This document shows positions 13,315 to 33,049 of a stretch of 64,000 nt of DNA, in pieces; the first letter of the stretch is position 1; each line of letters starts with the position of its first letter. Under the pieces are notes generated by a model, which worked only from the letters and a program-made list of their open reading frames with translations, did no database searches and was not told the DNA's origin. The stretch comes from Pseudomonas rhizophila (GTDB taxonomy: Bacteria; Pseudomonadota; Gammaproteobacteria; Pseudomonadales; Pseudomonadaceae). The position numbers and the translations under genes were made by a program. Location: the NCBI RefSeq assembly GCF_003033885.1, contig NZ_CP024081.1:3658554-3722553 (forward strand). Direction: 5' to 3'.

Positions 13315-15180
<1,866 letters not shown>

Positions 15181-17005: not shown

Positions 17006-17019
17006 TTGATCGCCATCAA
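17006..17019 (+). promoter_or_regulatory. ANR/DNR box of norCBD
   Basis: TTGAT-CGCC-ATCAA is a perfect FNR-family palindrome. Its centre lies about 41 bases before a likely transcription start near 17054, which in turn is 23 bases before the norC ATG. This is the class II activator position expected for NO-induced norCB. Confidence 0.92.
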
Positions 17020-20952: not shown

Positions 20953-21153
20953 TCAGGCGATGTCGCGGGGTAACCAGAAAAACATGACGACGCAGAATAT
21001 CGTCAGGCCGACACAGAACCAGGTGAAGCGTCGCAGGCGGCGCTCGCCAGCCAGCCCTGCCTCGGCCGGTAGCGGCATGCCGCACTGGCGACATTCGCTT
21101 TGATTGGCGGGGTTGGCGTGTTGGCAATACAGGCAGGTGGGTTGCGCGCTCAT
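20953..21153 (-). CDS. DnrP-like zinc-ribbon membrane protein
   Basis: A 66-residue protein with a zinc ribbon (CLYCQHANPANQSECRQC, a CxxC-x10-CxxC pattern at about residues 7-24) and one C-terminal transmembrane helix (about residues 43-60). Its ATG overlaps the dnr stop (ATGA), so the two are co-translated. Small proteins of this form next to dnr have been called DnrP in Pseudomonas; function unknown to me. Confidence 0.75.
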   Translation of the reverse strand: MSAQPTCLYCQHANPANQSECRQCGMPLPAEAGLAGERRLRRFTWFCVGLTIFCVVMFFWLPRDIA

Positions 21154-21833
21154 TCGAAATGTTCCAGGCGCAGGCGGTCGAGAATGGCGATCTGGCGACC
21201 GTCCTGGGTGATGATTTTTTCATCGATCAGCCGGCGGATGATCCGCGAGAAGGTTTCTGGCTGGATCGACAGGTGTCCGGCGATCAGTTGCTTGGCCATG
21301 GGCAGCTCGAACTGGCTGTCCACGGTTTGCAAGCGTACCAGTTGTGTCAGCAGGTAGCGCACCACGCGGTGGGTGGCGTTTTTCAGCGACAGGGTTTCAA
21401 TCTCGTTGACCCGTTGGTGCAGGCGCACACAGAGCTTGCCGAGCAGGGCGAAGGTCAACCGGCTGTTACTTTGCAAAAGACGCATGTACGTGGCATTGGA
21501 CAGGCGATACAGCTGGGTTGGCCCAACGGCCTCTGCGCAAGCGACGTAGTTCGGCGTGTCCATCAGCATCATGGCTTCAGCGAAGGTCTGGCGCTCGCCG
21601 ATCACCTCGAAGACTTTTTCCTGGCCGTCCGGCGTCAACCGGTAGATTTTCACCGCGCCGGAGATCACGAAGTAAAACGCCTGCGCCGGTTCGCCCTGGC
21701 GGAACAGCGGTTCGCCCCTGTCGACATTCAGCAATTGGCTGGTACTCATCAGTTCGTCGAGCTGTTCTTCGTTCAACGGTTCGAACAGGTGATGACTGCG
21801 CAGAATCTGGTGATGAACACGGTGAAGCACCAT
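21150..21833 (-). CDS. dnr: DNR, NO-responsive CRP/FNR-family activator
   Basis: A 227-residue regulator closely resembling P. aeruginosa DNR. It has a cyclic-nucleotide-like sensor domain with bound heme (SHHLFEPL and DTPNYVACAEAV regions), no N-terminal cysteine cluster, and HTH with HLSIQPETFSRI, which reads TTGAT-N4-ATCAA boxes. It senses NO and activates nir, nor and nos. AAGGA lies upstream of the ATG. The upstream region carries a sigma54 promoter and three NorR sites, so it may itself be NO-induced through NorR. Confidence 0.95.
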   Translation of the reverse strand: MVLHRVHHQILRSHHLFEPLNEEQLDELMSTSQLLNVDRGEPLFRQGEPAQAFYFVISGAVKIYRLTPDGQEKVFEVIGERQTFAEAMMLMDTPNYVACAEAVGPTQLYRLSNATYMRLLQSNSRLTFALLGKLCVRLHQRVNEIETLSLKNATHRVVRYLLTQLVRLQTVDSQFELPMAKQLIAGHLSIQPETFSRIIRRLIDEKIITQDGRQIAILDRLRLEHFE

Positions 21834-21870
21834 GGCATGAGTCCTTGTATGGCAGGGAAATGAATCGGAT

Positions 21871-21960
21871 TCAGACGAGGCTCAGGGACAGGCCGCTGGC
21901 CAGCCCCACGACGCAAGAGAGCAGGACGAACCAGGCGAGCGGCAGCGCGACGTATTTCAT
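21871..21960 (-). CDS. Possible 29-residue membrane small protein upstream of dnr
   Basis: ATG at 21958-21960, TGA at 21871-21873. The translation begins MKYVALPLAWFVLLSC and is almost wholly hydrophobic, so a single membrane helix is likely. It lies about 27 bases after the start site predicted from the sigma54 element at 21998-22013 and 37 bases before dnr. The ribosome site (GGGG) is weak. It could be a real NO-induced small membrane protein, or a leader for dnr. I know of no family for it. Confidence 0.45.
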   Translation of the reverse strand: MKYVALPLAWFVLLSCVVGLASGLSLSLV

Positions 21961-21997
21961 GGGTAACCCCGGCAAAAAAAAGTCTGTGCCCTGCCAG

Positions 21998-22013
21998 AGC
22001 AAGAGACGGGCCA
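21998..22013 (-). promoter_or_regulatory. Sigma54 promoter toward the small ORF and dnr
   Basis: Read on the minus strand the bases are TGGCCCG-TCTC-TTGCT. The consensus is TGGCACG-N4-TTGCW, so there is a single mismatch, and the GG-N10-GC spacing is exact. Predicted start near 21987. Confidence 0.75.
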
Positions 22014-22053
22014 TGCCCGCAACCGTTGATTTGCGGGGCCGTACGGTGAGATG

Positions 22054-22111
22054 GGTATAAATGACCCTGTACTGCTAGGGTGATAATCACCATGACAGGG
22101 TTATATTTACC
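22054..22111. promoter_or_regulatory. Three NorR enhancer sites upstream of dnr
   Basis: Three copies of GGT-N7-ACC lie at 22054-22066, 22079-22091 and 22099-22111. Spacing start to start is 25 and 20 bases. The first begins 42 bases from the -24 GG of the minus-strand sigma54 element. The middle copy is the full palindrome GGTGATAATCACC. Confidence 0.82.
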
Positions 22112-22127
22112 CGGTTGATGGCCATTT

Positions 22128-22212
22128 GTGGGAGCGAGCCTGCTCACGATGGCGGCTTGACAGTCAGCGGAGATATCGAGCTGACCGGCCTCATCGCCAG
22201 CAGGCTCGCCCC
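22128..22212. repeat. REPIN upstream of nnrS (degenerate)
   Basis: Type A arms (GTGGGAGCGAGCCTGCTCACGATGGC and GCCAGCAGGCTCGCCCC) flank a central stretch. One arm is degenerate. It lies between the NorR sites and nnrS. Confidence 0.8.
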
Positions 22213-22267
22213 TTCAGGGGATAAACAGACGGTTTATTGAGTGGGGCGGTGCACCCTCGAACAGTTT

Positions 22268-22283
22268 CGGCAAGCCCCTTGCA
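22268..22283 (+). promoter_or_regulatory. Possible sigma54 promoter toward nnrS
   Basis: CGGCAAG-CCCC-TTGCA keeps GG-N10-GC and matches the consensus except at two bases of the -24 block. It lies 157 bases from the nearest NorR site, a usual enhancer distance. Weaker than the minus-strand element. A competing ANR/DNR-like site lies at 22308. Confidence 0.45.
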
Positions 22284-22307
22284 AGTACCTGGGTGAGGCA
22301 GGCTGGC

Positions 22308-22321
22308 TTGATCTGAGACAA
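22308..22321 (+). promoter_or_regulatory. Degenerate ANR/DNR-like box before nnrS
   Basis: TTGAT-CTGA-GACAA has one perfect half and one half with two changes. The centre is 97 bases before the nnrS ATG. In other denitrifiers nnrS answers to FNR-family NO regulators, so this is plausible but not strong. Confidence 0.4.
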
Positions 22322-22411
22322 GGCCCGCCGGTGCCGATAGCTGATCATTCGAACCCTGATTGTTGACCCCTCACCGCTGGCCCGTCCCGCGCTGAGGTAA
22401 AGGAGTGGTGT

Positions 22412-23602
22412 ATGCAAGTGCTTGACCGTCGCAAGGCCATGGCCATCCTGCCGTTGTGGCGGCTGGCGTTTCGGCCGTTCTTCCTGGCCGGGTGTGTGCT
22501 TGCATTGTTGGCCATACCGTTGTGGCTGGCGGCGTTTACTGGAAGGCTGTCGGCCTGGCAACCGGCCGGCGGCTGGTTGGCCTGGCACCGTCATGAACTG
22601 CTGTTCGGCTTCGGCCTGGCAATCATCGCCGGGTTCTTGTTGACGGCGGTGCAGACCTGGACAGGTACTCCGGGGCTCAGTGGCAAACGTCTGACGGCGC
22701 TGGCGCTGTTATGGCTGGGCGCGCGACTGGCCTGGCTGGCAGATGCGCCCTGGCCATTGCTGACGGTGCTGGAGCTGGGTTTCGCCCTGGCGGTTGCGGC
22801 GTTGATGGGCATTACGTTGTGGCGCGTACGGCAGAAGCGCAATTACCCGATTGTGCTGGTCTTGCTGCTGTTGGCCGCCGCTGATGGGTTATCCGTGTAC
22901 GGTCTGGTGCAACATGACGAGGGCTTGCAGCGCCAAAGCGTGCTCACGGGCCTGTGGCTGGTAGCGGCGATGATGGGCCTGATCGGCGGGCGGGTGATTC
23001 CTTTCTTTACCCAGCGCGGTCTGGGCCGGGTAGAGGGCGTTGCCCCCTGGCAGTGGCTCGATCGTCTGTTACTGGCGGGGTCGGCACTGGTGGCGCTGCT
23101 GTATGCCTTCGGCCCGGCGCTGTCGACCAGCCTCTGGGTCGGCCTGTTGTTCGCCGCGCTGGCGGTGGGGCACGGGGTGCGACTGGTGCGTTGGCATGAT
23201 CGGGATTTGTGGCGAGTGCCGCTGCTGTGGTCGCTGCACCTGGCCTACGCCTGGCTGGCGCTGGCTTGCCTGGGCATGGCGCTGTGGCATTTCGGCGTCG
23301 CGCTGAACCCGAGCCTGGCGGTGCACAGCTTGTCCATCGGCGCCATGGCCGGGTTGATCCTGGCGATGATCGCCCGCGTCAGCCTGGGCCATACCGGGCG
23401 AGCCTTGGAACCGCCGGCCGGCATGACCCTGGCGTTCGTCCTGCTGAACCTGGCATGCCTGAGCCGAGTGCTGCTGGTGCTGCTGTTCCCGTTGGCCGCG
23501 CTGTGGCTGGCGGGGCTGTGCTGGACCCTGGCATTTGGACTCTACGCCTGGCGTTATGGGCCGATGCTGTTGCAGGCCCGCGTGGATGGGCATCCAGGAT
23601 GA
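22412..23602 (+). CDS. nnrS: NnrS family heme-copper membrane protein
   Basis: A 396-residue polytopic membrane protein with about twelve helices. It begins MQVLDRRKAMAILPLWRLAFRPFFLAG, with the FRPFFL motif diagnostic of NnrS. NnrS proteins contain heme and copper and protect cells from nitrosative stress, chiefly by limiting iron-nitrosyl formation. AAAGGAG precedes the ATG. Confidence 0.93.
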   Translation: MQVLDRRKAMAILPLWRLAFRPFFLAGCVLALLAIPLWLAAFTGRLSAWQPAGGWLAWHRHELLFGFGLAIIAGFLLTAVQTWTGTPGLSGKRLTALALLWLGARLAWLADAPWPLLTVLELGFALAVAALMGITLWRVRQKRNYPIVLVLLLLAAADGLSVYGLVQHDEGLQRQSVLTGLWLVAAMMGLIGGRVIPFFTQRGLGRVEGVAPWQWLDRLLLAGSALVALLYAFGPALSTSLWVGLLFAALAVGHGVRLVRWHDRDLWRVPLLWSLHLAYAWLALACLGMALWHFGVALNPSLAVHSLSIGAMAGLILAMIARVSLGHTGRALEPPAGMTLAFVLLNLACLSRVLLVLLFPLAALWLAGLCWTLAFGLYAWRYGPMLLQARVDGHPG

Positions 23603-24195: not shown

Positions 24196-24870
24196 TCAGC
24201 GAACGGGTTTCATCGCATTGACGAACAACACATTGTTTTCCAGATGGATGTGCTGCATCAGGTCATCACGAAACTCCACCAGCCCGCGATACAGGGCGCG
24301 CCAGGTGTTGCAGGCATCGGAGGGCGGGGTGATCTGGTCGGTCAGGGCAAGCATGGTTTCCAGCGCTTCACCGTGCTGGTCGTGTTCGTAGCGCAGTACC
24401 TGGATGGGGGCCGAGGCCCGATCACCCAGGCCCTGTTGCAGCATTGGGAACAGCACCTGCTCCTCCTTGAGCATGTGGCCTTCGAGTTCCTGATACATGT
24501 CCTGCAAGTGATCGGCCAGGCCGACGGGGCAACTGGCCCGGGCGCCATGGACCATCTCGACGCGGCGGGCCAGACGGATCAATTCCGGCAGCTGTTCGCG
24601 GTGACGGGCGTGGTAGCGTTCCAGGATGTGGGCGATCAACAGCGCCTGGGGTTCGTCGCGCCAGTCATGGCCCAGTTCCCCAGCGGCTTGCAGGGTGCGC
24701 AGGGCATCGGCGATCAGCAGTGGGTTCAGGCCCTTGCCCAGCGCTGCTTCGCGCAAGGATTTTTGCCCGCCACAACAGAAGTCGAGGTTGTAGTGATGGA
24801 AGGTACGGGTGGCACCGGGAATGTCGCAGGCCAATTGGCCGAGGCTTTGTTCCAGCAGATCGAGGCTCAT
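24196..24870 (-). CDS. dnrN: DnrN/YtfE/ScdA-type di-iron iron-sulfur cluster repair protein
   Basis: A 224-residue RIC-family protein. The N-terminal ScdA domain carries HHYNLDFCCGGQKSL, then a hemerythrin-like domain has histidines and carboxylates for the di-iron site (HILERYHARHREQLPEL, EGHMLKEEQVLFP, EHDQHGEAL, HIHLENNVLF). It repairs iron-sulfur clusters after NO damage. The ATG at 24870 follows AAGGAAAC; an adjacent ATG at 24873 is possible. Divergent from norR, with a sigma54 promoter and NorR sites between. Confidence 0.94.
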   Translation of the reverse strand: MSLDLLEQSLGQLACDIPGATRTFHHYNLDFCCGGQKSLREAALGKGLNPLLIADALRTLQAAGELGHDWRDEPQALLIAHILERYHARHREQLPELIRLARRVEMVHGARASCPVGLADHLQDMYQELEGHMLKEEQVLFPMLQQGLGDRASAPIQVLRYEHDQHGEALETMLALTDQITPPSDACNTWRALYRGLVEFRDDLMQHIHLENNVLFVNAMKPVR

Positions 24871-24916
24871 CATGTTTCCTTGGGTTGAATCCCGGGAGGG
24901 ACAGATGAGCGAACTT

Positions 24917-24932
24917 TGCAGCCGACGTGCCA
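24917..24932 (-). promoter_or_regulatory. Sigma54 promoter of dnrN
   Basis: Minus strand TGGCACG-TCGG-CTGCA has a perfect -24 block and one mismatch in the -12 block, with exact GG-N10-GC spacing. Predicted start near 24906, about 36 bases before the dnrN ATG. Confidence 0.85.
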
Positions 24933-24972: not shown

Positions 24973-25029
24973 GGTGATTCTCACCCTGGCTGCAAGGGGT
25001 CAAACGAACCCTGGAGGGTAATCACTACC
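24973..25029. promoter_or_regulatory. Three NorR sites between dnrN and norR
   Basis: GGT-N7-ACC copies at 24973-24985, 24998-25010 and 25017-25029, spaced 25 and 19 bases. The first lies 42 bases from the -24 GG of the dnrN promoter. The third abuts the norR ATG, so NorR could also repress its own gene. Confidence 0.88.
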
Positions 25030-26562
25030 ATGCTGCGTGAAAGCCTGGCCGCCGACCTGATCGTCGAGTTGCCCAATGCCGTTCGATTGCAACGCCTGGT
25101 ACAGACCCTGCGCGAATACTTCAACAGTGGCGCCGTAGGCTTGTTGCGCCTGGACGATGACAGCCTCAGGCCCGTCGCCACTGTAGGCCTGGTGCATGAA
25201 GCGCTCGGCCGTCGGTTCGTGATCGCCCAGCATCCGCGTCTGGCGGCGATCATGGCGTCGCGCGAACCTACCTGGTTCGAGCCCGACAGCCGCTTGCCCG
25301 ACCCTTATGACGGCTTGCTCGATAACCACGTCGGCGAGCCGCTGCCGGTGCACGACTGCATGGGCGTGAGCCTGTACGTGGAAGGGCGGCTCTGGGGCGC
25401 GATCACCCTGGATGCCTTGCACGCCGGCACCTTCGACAGCCGCGCAAGGGAAGAACTCAAACGGTGCACCTTGCAGATCGAAGCGGCGGTGCGGGTGACC
25501 CGGCTCGAGCAGGAAAACCGCAGCCTGCGCGCCTCGCGCAGTGATCTGCCGGATGTCCGTCGGCCGGCCGAGGAGGGCGAGATCCTTGGGCGCAGCGAGG
25601 TGCTGGATCAACTGCTCAACGAGCTGGACGTATTGGCCGACTCCGAACTGCCGGTGCTGTTGCTGGGAGAAACCGGTGTCGGCAAGGAGTTGTTTGCGCG
25701 TCGTTTGCATCGCTTGTCCCGGCGCAGTCACAAGCCGCTGGTGCAGGTCAATTGCGCAGCCTTGCCCGAGTCCCTGGCCGAAAGCGAACTGTTCGGCCAC
25801 GTCAAAGGGGCATTCTCCGGCGCTACGACTGACCGCGCGGGGCGTTTCGACGCGGCCAATGGCGGCACGCTGTTTCTCGACGAGGTGGGTGAATTGCCGT
25901 TGAGTGTGCAGGCCAAGTTGCTGCGCACCCTGCAAAACGGCGAGATCCAGCGCCTGGGTGCTGACAAGCCGCTGCACGTCGATGTGCGGATCATCGCCGC
26001 CACCAACCGCCACCTGCCGGACAGCATTCGCGATGGGCTATTTCGCGCCGACCTGTATCACCGGCTCTCGGTCTACCCGGTGCCGATCCCGCCGTTGCGC
26101 GAACGCGGTAGCGATGTGCTGATGCTAGCCGGGCATTTCCTCGAGTTGAACCGCACGCGCCTGGGCTTGCGCGGCTTGCGCCTGTCACCGGCCGCTGAAC
26201 AGGCGCTGTTGGCGTACTCCTGGCCGGGCAATGTGCGGGAGCTGGAGCACGTGATCAGTCGCGCGGCGTTGAAGCAACTCAGCCGCGGGGCCAGTCGCAG
26301 CCTGATCATGACCCTGGAGCCGCAGGTGCTGGACCTGGACGTCAGTGCCAGCGGATCCACGACCCACGCGACACTTGAACAGTCTCCAGAGGTCGCCGAT
26401 GTACCGTTCCAGCCGCTGAATGAAGCTGTCGACACTTGCCAGCGCCAGGCGATCCTCAAGGCCCTGGAGCATTGCGGGCAGAACTGGGCCGGTGCGGCGC
26501 GGCTGCTGGAGGTCGACCCGAGCAACCTGCATAAACTGGCGCGGCGGTTGGGGCTCAAGTAG
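25030..26562 (+). CDS. norR: NorR, NO-sensing sigma54-dependent activator
   Basis: A 510-residue enhancer-binding protein. An N-terminal GAF domain (about residues 20-165) holds the mononuclear iron that binds NO. The AAA+ domain has Walker A GETGVGKE and GAFSGA (a natural variant of the sigma54-contact loop GAFTGA). The C-terminal Fis-type HTH is AARLLEVDPSNLHKLARRL. Its neighbour dnrN and the GGT-N7-ACC sites beside its start fit NorR better than other family members. Confidence 0.94.
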   Translation: MLRESLAADLIVELPNAVRLQRLVQTLREYFNSGAVGLLRLDDDSLRPVATVGLVHEALGRRFVIAQHPRLAAIMASREPTWFEPDSRLPDPYDGLLDNHVGEPLPVHDCMGVSLYVEGRLWGAITLDALHAGTFDSRAREELKRCTLQIEAAVRVTRLEQENRSLRASRSDLPDVRRPAEEGEILGRSEVLDQLLNELDVLADSELPVLLLGETGVGKELFARRLHRLSRRSHKPLVQVNCAALPESLAESELFGHVKGAFSGATTDRAGRFDAANGGTLFLDEVGELPLSVQAKLLRTLQNGEIQRLGADKPLHVDVRIIAATNRHLPDSIRDGLFRADLYHRLSVYPVPIPPLRERGSDVLMLAGHFLELNRTRLGLRGLRLSPAAEQALLAYSWPGNVRELEHVISRAALKQLSRGASRSLIMTLEPQVLDLDVSASGSTTHATLEQSPEVADVPFQPLNEAVDTCQRQAILKALEHCGQNWAGAARLLEVDPSNLHKLARRLGLK

Positions 26563-32264: not shown

Positions 32265-32942
32265 TTATTGCTGGTAAGCGTCCAGCTCATCTTCGGCCAG
32301 GATGCGAATGTTGCGCCGCTCCATGGCAATCAGGCCACCGTCTACCAGGCGATGGAGAATGCGCGAAAAAGTCTCTGGCTGGATTCCCAGCTTGGAGGCC
32401 ACCAGGCGTTTGGACACCTGTAGCACCACCTGGCCGTCGCGCGGGTCGCGTTCCTGAAGCAGAAAGTTGATGACCCGCCGGCTGGCGCTGGCCAGGGTCA
32501 GGTTGTCGATGTCCTTGAGGCGCTGGTGCAAATGGATACTCATGCTCGCCAGGATCGCCAGGCAGACCTTCGGCTGGTCTTCCAGGGCCTTGCGGTAATG
32601 AGTGCCTTCGATACTCACCAGTACGCTGTCCTTGAGCGCCGACGCACTGACCGGGTAGCACCGGGCCTGGCTGAACAGCAGAGCCTCGGCGAAGGTCTGT
32701 CCGGGCTGGATGATTTCCACCAGGTTTTCCTGGCCTTCACCGGTGACCCGGAACAGCTTGATCTGACCGCTGACCAGCAGGAAAAACCGCTTGGCCGGGT
32801 CGCCCTGGTGCATGAGCGTGCTGTTGCACTCCAGGCGTTTGAGCACGGCCAGGTTGCACACGTCTTCGAAGACCCGCTCCGGTAACTGGCTGAACAGGTG
32901 ATGACGACGCAACAGTAAAACGATGGAAGGATGAGTCAGCAT
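32265..32942 (-). CDS. Second DNR-type CRP/FNR regulator
   Basis: A 225-residue CRP/FNR-family protein with the same HTH core KLGIQPETFSRI as DNR at 21150, so it should read the same boxes. There is no N-terminal cysteine cluster, so it is not an oxygen-sensing FNR/ANR. It is diverged from DNR elsewhere. The ATG at 32942 has GGAGG; the frame is open to 32978. It resembles the Dnr paralogues (DnrE/DnrS type) of P. stutzeri. It follows narL in the same direction, with REP elements between. Confidence 0.85.
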   Translation of the reverse strand: MLTHPSIVLLLRRHHLFSQLPERVFEDVCNLAVLKRLECNSTLMHQGDPAKRFFLLVSGQIKLFRVTGEGQENLVEIIQPGQTFAEALLFSQARCYPVSASALKDSVLVSIEGTHYRKALEDQPKVCLAILASMSIHLHQRLKDIDNLTLASASRRVINFLLQERDPRDGQVVLQVSKRLVASKLGIQPETFSRILHRLVDGGLIAMERRNIRILAEDELDAYQQ

Positions 32943-33049
32943 GGCGTACCTCCGCGTGCCGTCATGGTAGAACCCCACGCGCCCCCGGCCTATGCCTCCG
33001 CAGGCCTACCTCGGAAGAGGGAGGTGCGTCCCCGCTCAAACACAAACCC

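Follow-up and report, generated by a model that had tools for sequence, protein, structure and literature searches.

Described NorR/sigma54 promoters share one layout, in which tandem GT-N7-AC sites lie upstream of a -24/-12 element and norR is usually near, as at norVW in E. coli, norAB in Ralstonia and hmp/nnrS in V. cholerae and Pseudomonas (PMC1274295). The NorR targets named in that account by Rodionov and co-workers are hmp, dnrN, nnrS, norVW, norB and hcp, dnr not being among those named; NorR control was predicted there for dnrN and hmp in P. stutzeri and for nnrS in P. aeruginosa and V. cholerae (PMC1274295). Denitrification is activated in response to NO by DNR. How its gene is controlled is usually described after P. 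aeruginosa, where dnr is reported to be under ANR and NarXL (PMC12403760); an in-silico Anr study places dnr among the box-bearing genes common to P. aeruginosa and P. extremaustralis (PMC6588701). In P. stutzeri the ric gene (dnrN) requires DnrD, according to a review (PMC9268430). Our literature search returned no statement that NorR controls dnr, most subscription papers being beyond its reach.

The dnr-nnrS intergenic region of P. rhizophila

The window analyzed here is a stretch of 64,000 nucleotides of the P. rhizophila chromosome, which carries what appears to be a standard NorR enhancer between dnr and nnrS. It differs from the known NorR/sigma54 promoters, as these are presented in PMC1274295, in that its predicted target, dnr, encodes a second regulator that senses NO, and in that one triplet of sites lies between two divergent sigma54 promoters; while nnrS and dnrN had already been predicted as targets (PMC1274295), dnr would be a new and consequential one. 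Control of dnr by NorR and sigma54 is well supported by the geometry of the sites, their letter code, their joint absence with norR, the triplets that stand apart from norR, dnrN and nnrS, and RNA-seq data from P. donghuensis. Features are collected in Table 1.

Table 1. Features of the dnr-nnrS-dnrN-norR region, in positions of the window.
Feature	Position	Strand	Basis or remark
dnr, CRP/FNR-family activator	21150..21833	-	best solved structure P. aeruginosa DNR 3dkw, E 1.8e-94
Gene of 29-aa small hydrophobic peptide, between promoter and dnr	21871..21960	-	direct reading, motif in relatives
sigma54 -24/-12 element toward small gene and dnr, TGGCCCGTCTCTTGCT	21998..22013	-	11/12 consensus letters; expected start ~21987
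NorR site nearest dnr, GGT-N7-ACC, GGTATAAATGACC on + strand	22054..22066		direct reading and motif scan
Middle NorR site, GGT-N7-ACC, GGTGATAATCACC	22079..22091		direct reading and motif scan
NorR site nearest nnrS, GGT-N7-ACC, GGTTATATTTACC	22099..22111		direct reading and motif scan
sigma54 -24/-12 element toward nnrS, CGGCAAGCCCCTTGCA	22268..22283	+	10/12 consensus letters, conservation
FNR-type (ANR/DNR) box before nnrS, TTGATctgaGACAA	22308..22321	+	conserved among relatives
nnrS	22412..23602	+	Pfam NnrS, E 5.6e-107
dnrN (ytfE/RIC)	24196..24888	-	YtfE model 325.5 bits, cut-off 254
sigma54 element of dnrN, TGGCACGTCGGCTGCA	24917..24932	-	reference arrangement
NorR triplet of dnrN, starts 24973, 24998, 25017	24973..25029		second of two in genome
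norR, dnrN-linked copy, NO-responsive sigma54 activator	25030..26562	+	NorR model NF003451, 691.8 bits, cut-off 476

The initial annotation had claimed a minus-strand sigma54 element followed by three GGT-N7-ACC sites, and both were confirmed (21998-22013; sites from 22054, 22079 and 22099). The sites follow each other at start-to-start distances of 25 and 20 bases, and 40 bases separate the element from the first site, equal to the gap at dnrN; this gap had been given as 42 bases, likely a counting difference. The norR gene, above its curated cut-off, lies 2.9 kb from the dnr/nnrS triplet. Domain and structure-sequence searches found cNMP and Crp HTH domains in the dnr product and kinship to solved DNR; it is 100% identical to its counterparts in P. 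tehranensis and Pseudomonas sp. Q11 and 96-97% identical to those of corrugata/brassicacearum relatives, identities that place the window most likely in the P. fluorescens complex.

Neither kind of element is informative by itself. A scan for the sigma54 consensus with up to two mismatches gave 12 matches in the window against 18.9 expected, so that the element alone says little, and single GGT-N7-ACC sites are common (44 against 15.4 expected), hence one such site carries no information. The triplet, with gaps of 4-20 bases, occurs at two places in the whole genome of 5,948,515 bases, dnr/nnrS and dnrN/norR, and the reversed pattern gave 0 matches in the same 5.95 Mb. Triplet matches were present in 131 of 398 genomes of the genus, some of which look like chance by their odd spacing, and the reversed control also matched in some.

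Some further features of the window were recorded. A terminator-like stem with a T run, a single find against 0.2 expected, lies at 22001-21987 (-) and overlaps the -12 part of the promoter of dnr. The sigma54-contacting loop of the NorR encoded at 25030-26562 reads GAFSGA, as it does in all 57 NorR frames found by motif scan of 80 loci; this loop is usually GAFTGA. A second DNR-like CRP/FNR protein is encoded at 32265-32978 (-), adjoining narX/narL-like genes, and in strain F113 a regulator called DnrS is reported in a narX/narL-like setting (PMC3570484).

Conservation of the dnr-side elements among relatives

We compared 80 named dnr loci and counted 78 of them. The two omitted are L080 and L082, in which nnrS has been lost and dnr comes after dnrN, to which the triplet belongs. 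The triplet together with the sigma54 element toward dnr is kept in 66 of the 78, with spacings of 18-20/23-25/40-42 bases, and exactly 20/24/40 in 34 of them. Absence of conservation of the three sites in related genomes had been named beforehand as one observation that would speak against NorR control; the counts show the sites to be widely kept. The gap between element and triplet was searched over 38-43 bases and found at 40-42 in the 66 loci. The invariance of the GT...AC core is a product of the search, which demanded GT-N7-AC; the outer G and C, which were not demanded, are complete in 55/66. The inner letters vary, with 59 distinct triplets among the 66 loci.

In L096 and L112 the GGT-N7-ACC triplets and the element TGGCCCGGGTCTTGCT are both kept with inserted DNA between them; this insertion, a repeat-like inverted sequence, puts a long distance between the triplet and the dnr sigma54 element. 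In the remaining ten loci, all within one clade of 12, triplet and element are wholly missing. Six loci without nnrS beside dnr (L103-L105, L107, L108 and L110) still have the dnr triplet and sigma54 element standing, while norR-dnrN lies elsewhere in the genome with a triplet of its own; in the complete chromosome of L110 the two are about 90 kb apart. The sigma54 element lies 51-56 bases from the dnr start in L102 and L111, with no small gene between.

A P. aeruginosa-like wiring, with dnr mainly under ANR and NarXL and NorR adding little, is unlikely. In its favour, P. aeruginosa dnr is reported to be so controlled (PMC12403760), the Anr-box study includes dnr for both of its species (PMC6588701), and an FNR-type box (up to two mismatches) lies 76-299 bases before dnr in nine of the ten loci that have no triplet. 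No such box was found close upstream of dnr in the window, where the nearest one (up to two mismatches) lies about 475 bases off, at nnrS, and 21800-22450 yielded no sigma70-like site on the strand of dnr. A sigma70-like site does occur on the plus strand, over the triplet and toward nnrS. Besides the sigma54 promoter, dnr could have another promoter of an unrecognised kind.

The P. aeruginosa-type locus itself (L151, whose DNR matches 3dkw in 223/227 residues) has no NorR triplet within 1400 bases of dnr, but an FNR-like box with 2 mismatches at -75. The regulator gene is the same in both species, with DNR targets in nir, nor and nos; the wiring had been suspected to depart from that of P. 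aeruginosa, and the comparison agrees, as far as the account in PMC12403760 describes ANR and NarXL control there.

NorR copies and their site codes

Whole genomes were searched for NorR-family proteins in 44 of the 80 cases, and each has at least one above the cut-off. The proteins fall into two kinds, one scoring about 752-785 bits (43/44 genomes) and one about 678-705 bits; the exception is the genome of L045, whose single, contig-cut match is its dnrN-linked copy, with no copy of 752-785 bits. The lower-scoring kind is the dnrN-linked gene wherever a locus reaches it, and in the 11 genomes where it lies outside the dnr locus (L036, L039, L067, L100, L103-L105, L107, L108, L110 and L111) it was in all 11 cases next to dnrN, where a GGT-N7-ACC triplet and sigma54 element were also present.

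The dnrN-linked NorR and the dnr triplet tend to be absent together. Eleven of the 44 genomes lack this copy: nine have no dnr triplet and two (L092, L101) have a degraded one, both sigma54 elements persisting in the latter, and no intact dnr triplet was found among the 11. In three others (L080, L082 and L094; P. marginalis, P. veronii and P. rhodesiae) the dnrN-linked NorR has no N-terminal GAF sensor domain; L094 has no dnr triplet, and in L080 and L082 the dnrN triplet is followed by dnrN and then dnr. In the other 30 both the copy and the dnr triplet are present, some triplets having changed outer letters. A tree built on dnr plus norD requires at least 3 changes for norR and 4 for the triplet, and 3/3 independent pairs agree in direction, which, with about three independent losses, is not significant by the sign test (p 0.25).

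We also considered that the hmp-linked paralogue (FhpR type), rather than the dnrN-linked NorR, binds the triplet. The copy of 752-785 bits was called hmp-linked from a flavohaemoglobin-like start detected by motif in 15/21 loci, and the reading frame of L187 matches the globin family. It has a triplet in 20 of the 21 loci examined, in the same architecture of three sites at about 19/26/40 spacing, and differs in its letters: 60/60 sites read GTC-N5-GAC, with a 3' T in about 94%, against 10/186 of the dnr sites (62 loci, with four odd ones excluded) and 0/3 in the window, whose site letters match the dnrN-linked NorR and not the paralogue. Log-odds scores separate the two sets (dnr median +49.4, and at least 27.9 outside the four odd loci; hmp -32.2 to -57.4), partly by construction, the model having been trained on the same sites. 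The odd loci L092, L101, L098 and L065 fall between both sets (-4.3 to +9.1), with changed outer letters and GTC-N5-GAC features; L098 and L065 still have the dnrN-linked NorR, whereas L092 and L101 are among the genomes without it. These intermediate letters, and the presence of at least one NorR-family protein in all 44 genomes, give binding by the paralogue what plausibility it has, and the four loci are suggestive, though only that, of a regulator hand-over toward the FhpR code. Nevertheless, the dnr triplet is lost or degraded in the genomes without the dnrN-linked copy though the other copy is kept, and together with the difference in code this makes binding by the paralogue at the window's triplet improbable.

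At the hmp-type promoters (L184 and L187-L206, 20 loci with triplet) the sigma54-like element is unusual, being without GC at -12, e.g. TGGCATGAAAACTGAT. At L183 (own genome, 4320513-4322033) a third NorR-family gene above the cut-off is accompanied by a TGT-N7-ACA-like triplet of its own, with a sigma54 element 42 bases away.

The nnrS side and the proposed NO circuit

A sigma54-like element toward nnrS, mostly [GC]GGCA[CA]GNCCCTTGCA, is present in 61 of the 71 relatives with nnrS beside dnr, and column conservation is high across it and low around it. We had taken the plus-strand element at 22268 for weak and doubtful, and the FNR box for the control of nnrS, a view overturned by this conservation scan. 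With the window included, 62 of 72 nnrS-dnr regions have the triplet (tolerating up to three outer-letter changes) and both sigma54 elements, 10/72 have none of them, and there are no mixtures; nine loci without usable nnrS beside dnr (L067, L080, L082, L103-L105, L107, L108 and L110) fall outside this count. Since the elements are present or absent together, the triplet is best understood as a single enhancer shared by two divergent promoters: it is probably not that of dnr alone, and would also serve nnrS. The spacing from the triplet to the nnrS-side element is variable (34-277 bases; 156 in the window, with a repeat-like stretch between), unlike the nearly fixed spacing on the dnr side. 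The stretch in the window, at about 22125-22215, resembles an inverted repeat. An FNR-type box (up to two mismatches) lies before nnrS, at -60 to -140, in 66/71 relatives, the five without it including L102 and L111. The initial annotation had seen a NorR region for dnr and the small gene; the control of dnr is backed by the comparison, while the nnrS promoter and the FNR-type box had been missed.

It is very improbable that the triplet acts on nnrS alone and that the sigma54 element on the dnr side is incidental, although a conserved element directed to nnrS exists and NorR control of nnrS has been predicted in P. aeruginosa and V. cholerae (PMC1274295): it is the dnr-side element that keeps a fixed spacing, the six loci without adjacent nnrS retain triplet and sigma54 element before the small gene and dnr, and dnr is reported as induced in P. 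donghuensis P482 (PMC10256816). Chance, or shared ancestry without function, is hardly credible. The regions do have related sequences, and a lone GGT-N7-ACC site is frequent, but divergence of the inner letters has left the site ends, the spacing and both -24/-12 elements in place, and all three elements go missing together.

Published RNA-seq of P482 exposed to tomato exudate reports log2 fold changes of +3.23 for dnr, +4.99 for nnrS, +4.18 to +4.44 for norD/norB/norC, +6.13 for hmp and +6.36 for ytfE, norR itself being down (-1.67); the inducer was exudate, not NO as such, and the cells were in early stationary phase, where low oxygen is possible (PMC10256816). Its authors state that nir genes were not induced and concluded exogenous NO stress; they note a gene cluster with norR and dnr, with no promoter proposed in the text available (PMC10256816). 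In P. donghuensis HYS (L102) the triplet is present, with the sigma54 element 56 bases from the dnr start, and nnrS has its sigma54 element and no FNR-type box.

Our preferred reading, which we hold to be very probable, is that NO is read twice, with the dnrN-linked NorR and sigma54 driving both dnr and nnrS in response to NO and the NO-responsive DNR then acting on its targets. NO-bound NorR (25030-26562) would sit on the triplet enhancer (22054-22111) and activate sigma54-RNA polymerase at 21998-22013 for the small membrane gene and dnr, and at 22268-22283 for nnrS. The DNR so made would need NO again in order to act, two NO readings in series, and would activate the genes for nor, nir and nos and, through the FNR-type box before it, probably nnrS once more; NO made by NirS would raise DNR, and Nor and DnrN would limit NO and its damage. 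FNR-type boxes with at most one mismatch number eight in the window against 0.75 expected, including 17006-17019 before norC and 15097-15110 near the nirS start, which supports targets of an FNR-type activator, likely DNR, in the window. As both NorR and DNR are NO sensors, we infer a feed-forward loop; NorR binding, NO induction in the P. rhizophila strain and the dynamics of the loop are likewise predicted from the DNA.

If NO raises dnr through NorR, then dnr induction need not depend on the oxygen level, the nor genes could be primed under aerobic conditions by NO made by a plant or a neighbour, and the circuit could have two stable states; in many soil Pseudomonas, dnr and nnrS would probably be turned on by NO rather than mainly by lack of oxygen. 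The relatives would moreover offer an example of two NorR paralogues that coexist and can be told apart by their DNA codes, and of a regulatory module whose parts are mostly lost together. A broader proposal, which we put forward tentatively and think somewhat doubtful as a whole, is that NO itself commits the cell to denitrification, with one enhancer firing two sigma54 promoters, DNR rising and NO from NirS locking the state on, that the module of norR, dnrN, triplet and elements was for the most part lost whole, leaving an FNR-type box, and that in a few lineages a hand-over to the FhpR code is under way.

Among 16 loci of the same genus code (own genome included, overlap with the named set kept), 11 have the triplet; L123 has the sigma54 element only, and L116, L126, L127 and L128 have no triplet. 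Among 20 further loci, mostly of other genera, the triplet was found in one (L157), before dnrN. For a genus code g15, which we take to be the P. stutzeri genus, in 19 of 20 loci from a longer list the triplet and the sigma54 element precede dnrN, and dnr comes about 240-850 bases further on in the same orientation; read-through from dnrN may thus place dnr under NorR there. Both this arrangement and the P. stutzeri dnrN promoter as described in PMC1274295 resemble ours in that a NorR-type enhancer precedes dnr in the same orientation; they differ in that dnr would there be reached only through dnrN, whereas here it appears to have its own promoter.

The small peptide gene before dnr is matched by one motif in 72/80 loci, its product having 29 aa in 65 and 50-170 aa in 7, and L039 also has such a gene, missed by the motif. 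Of its differences, 53% fall at third codon positions. A family search with the longer version gave one match, far below the cut-off (E 0.047). In L105 and L110 the small peptide corresponds to the start of a 170-aa protein, and the 29-aa peptide may thus be a shortened but maintained relic.
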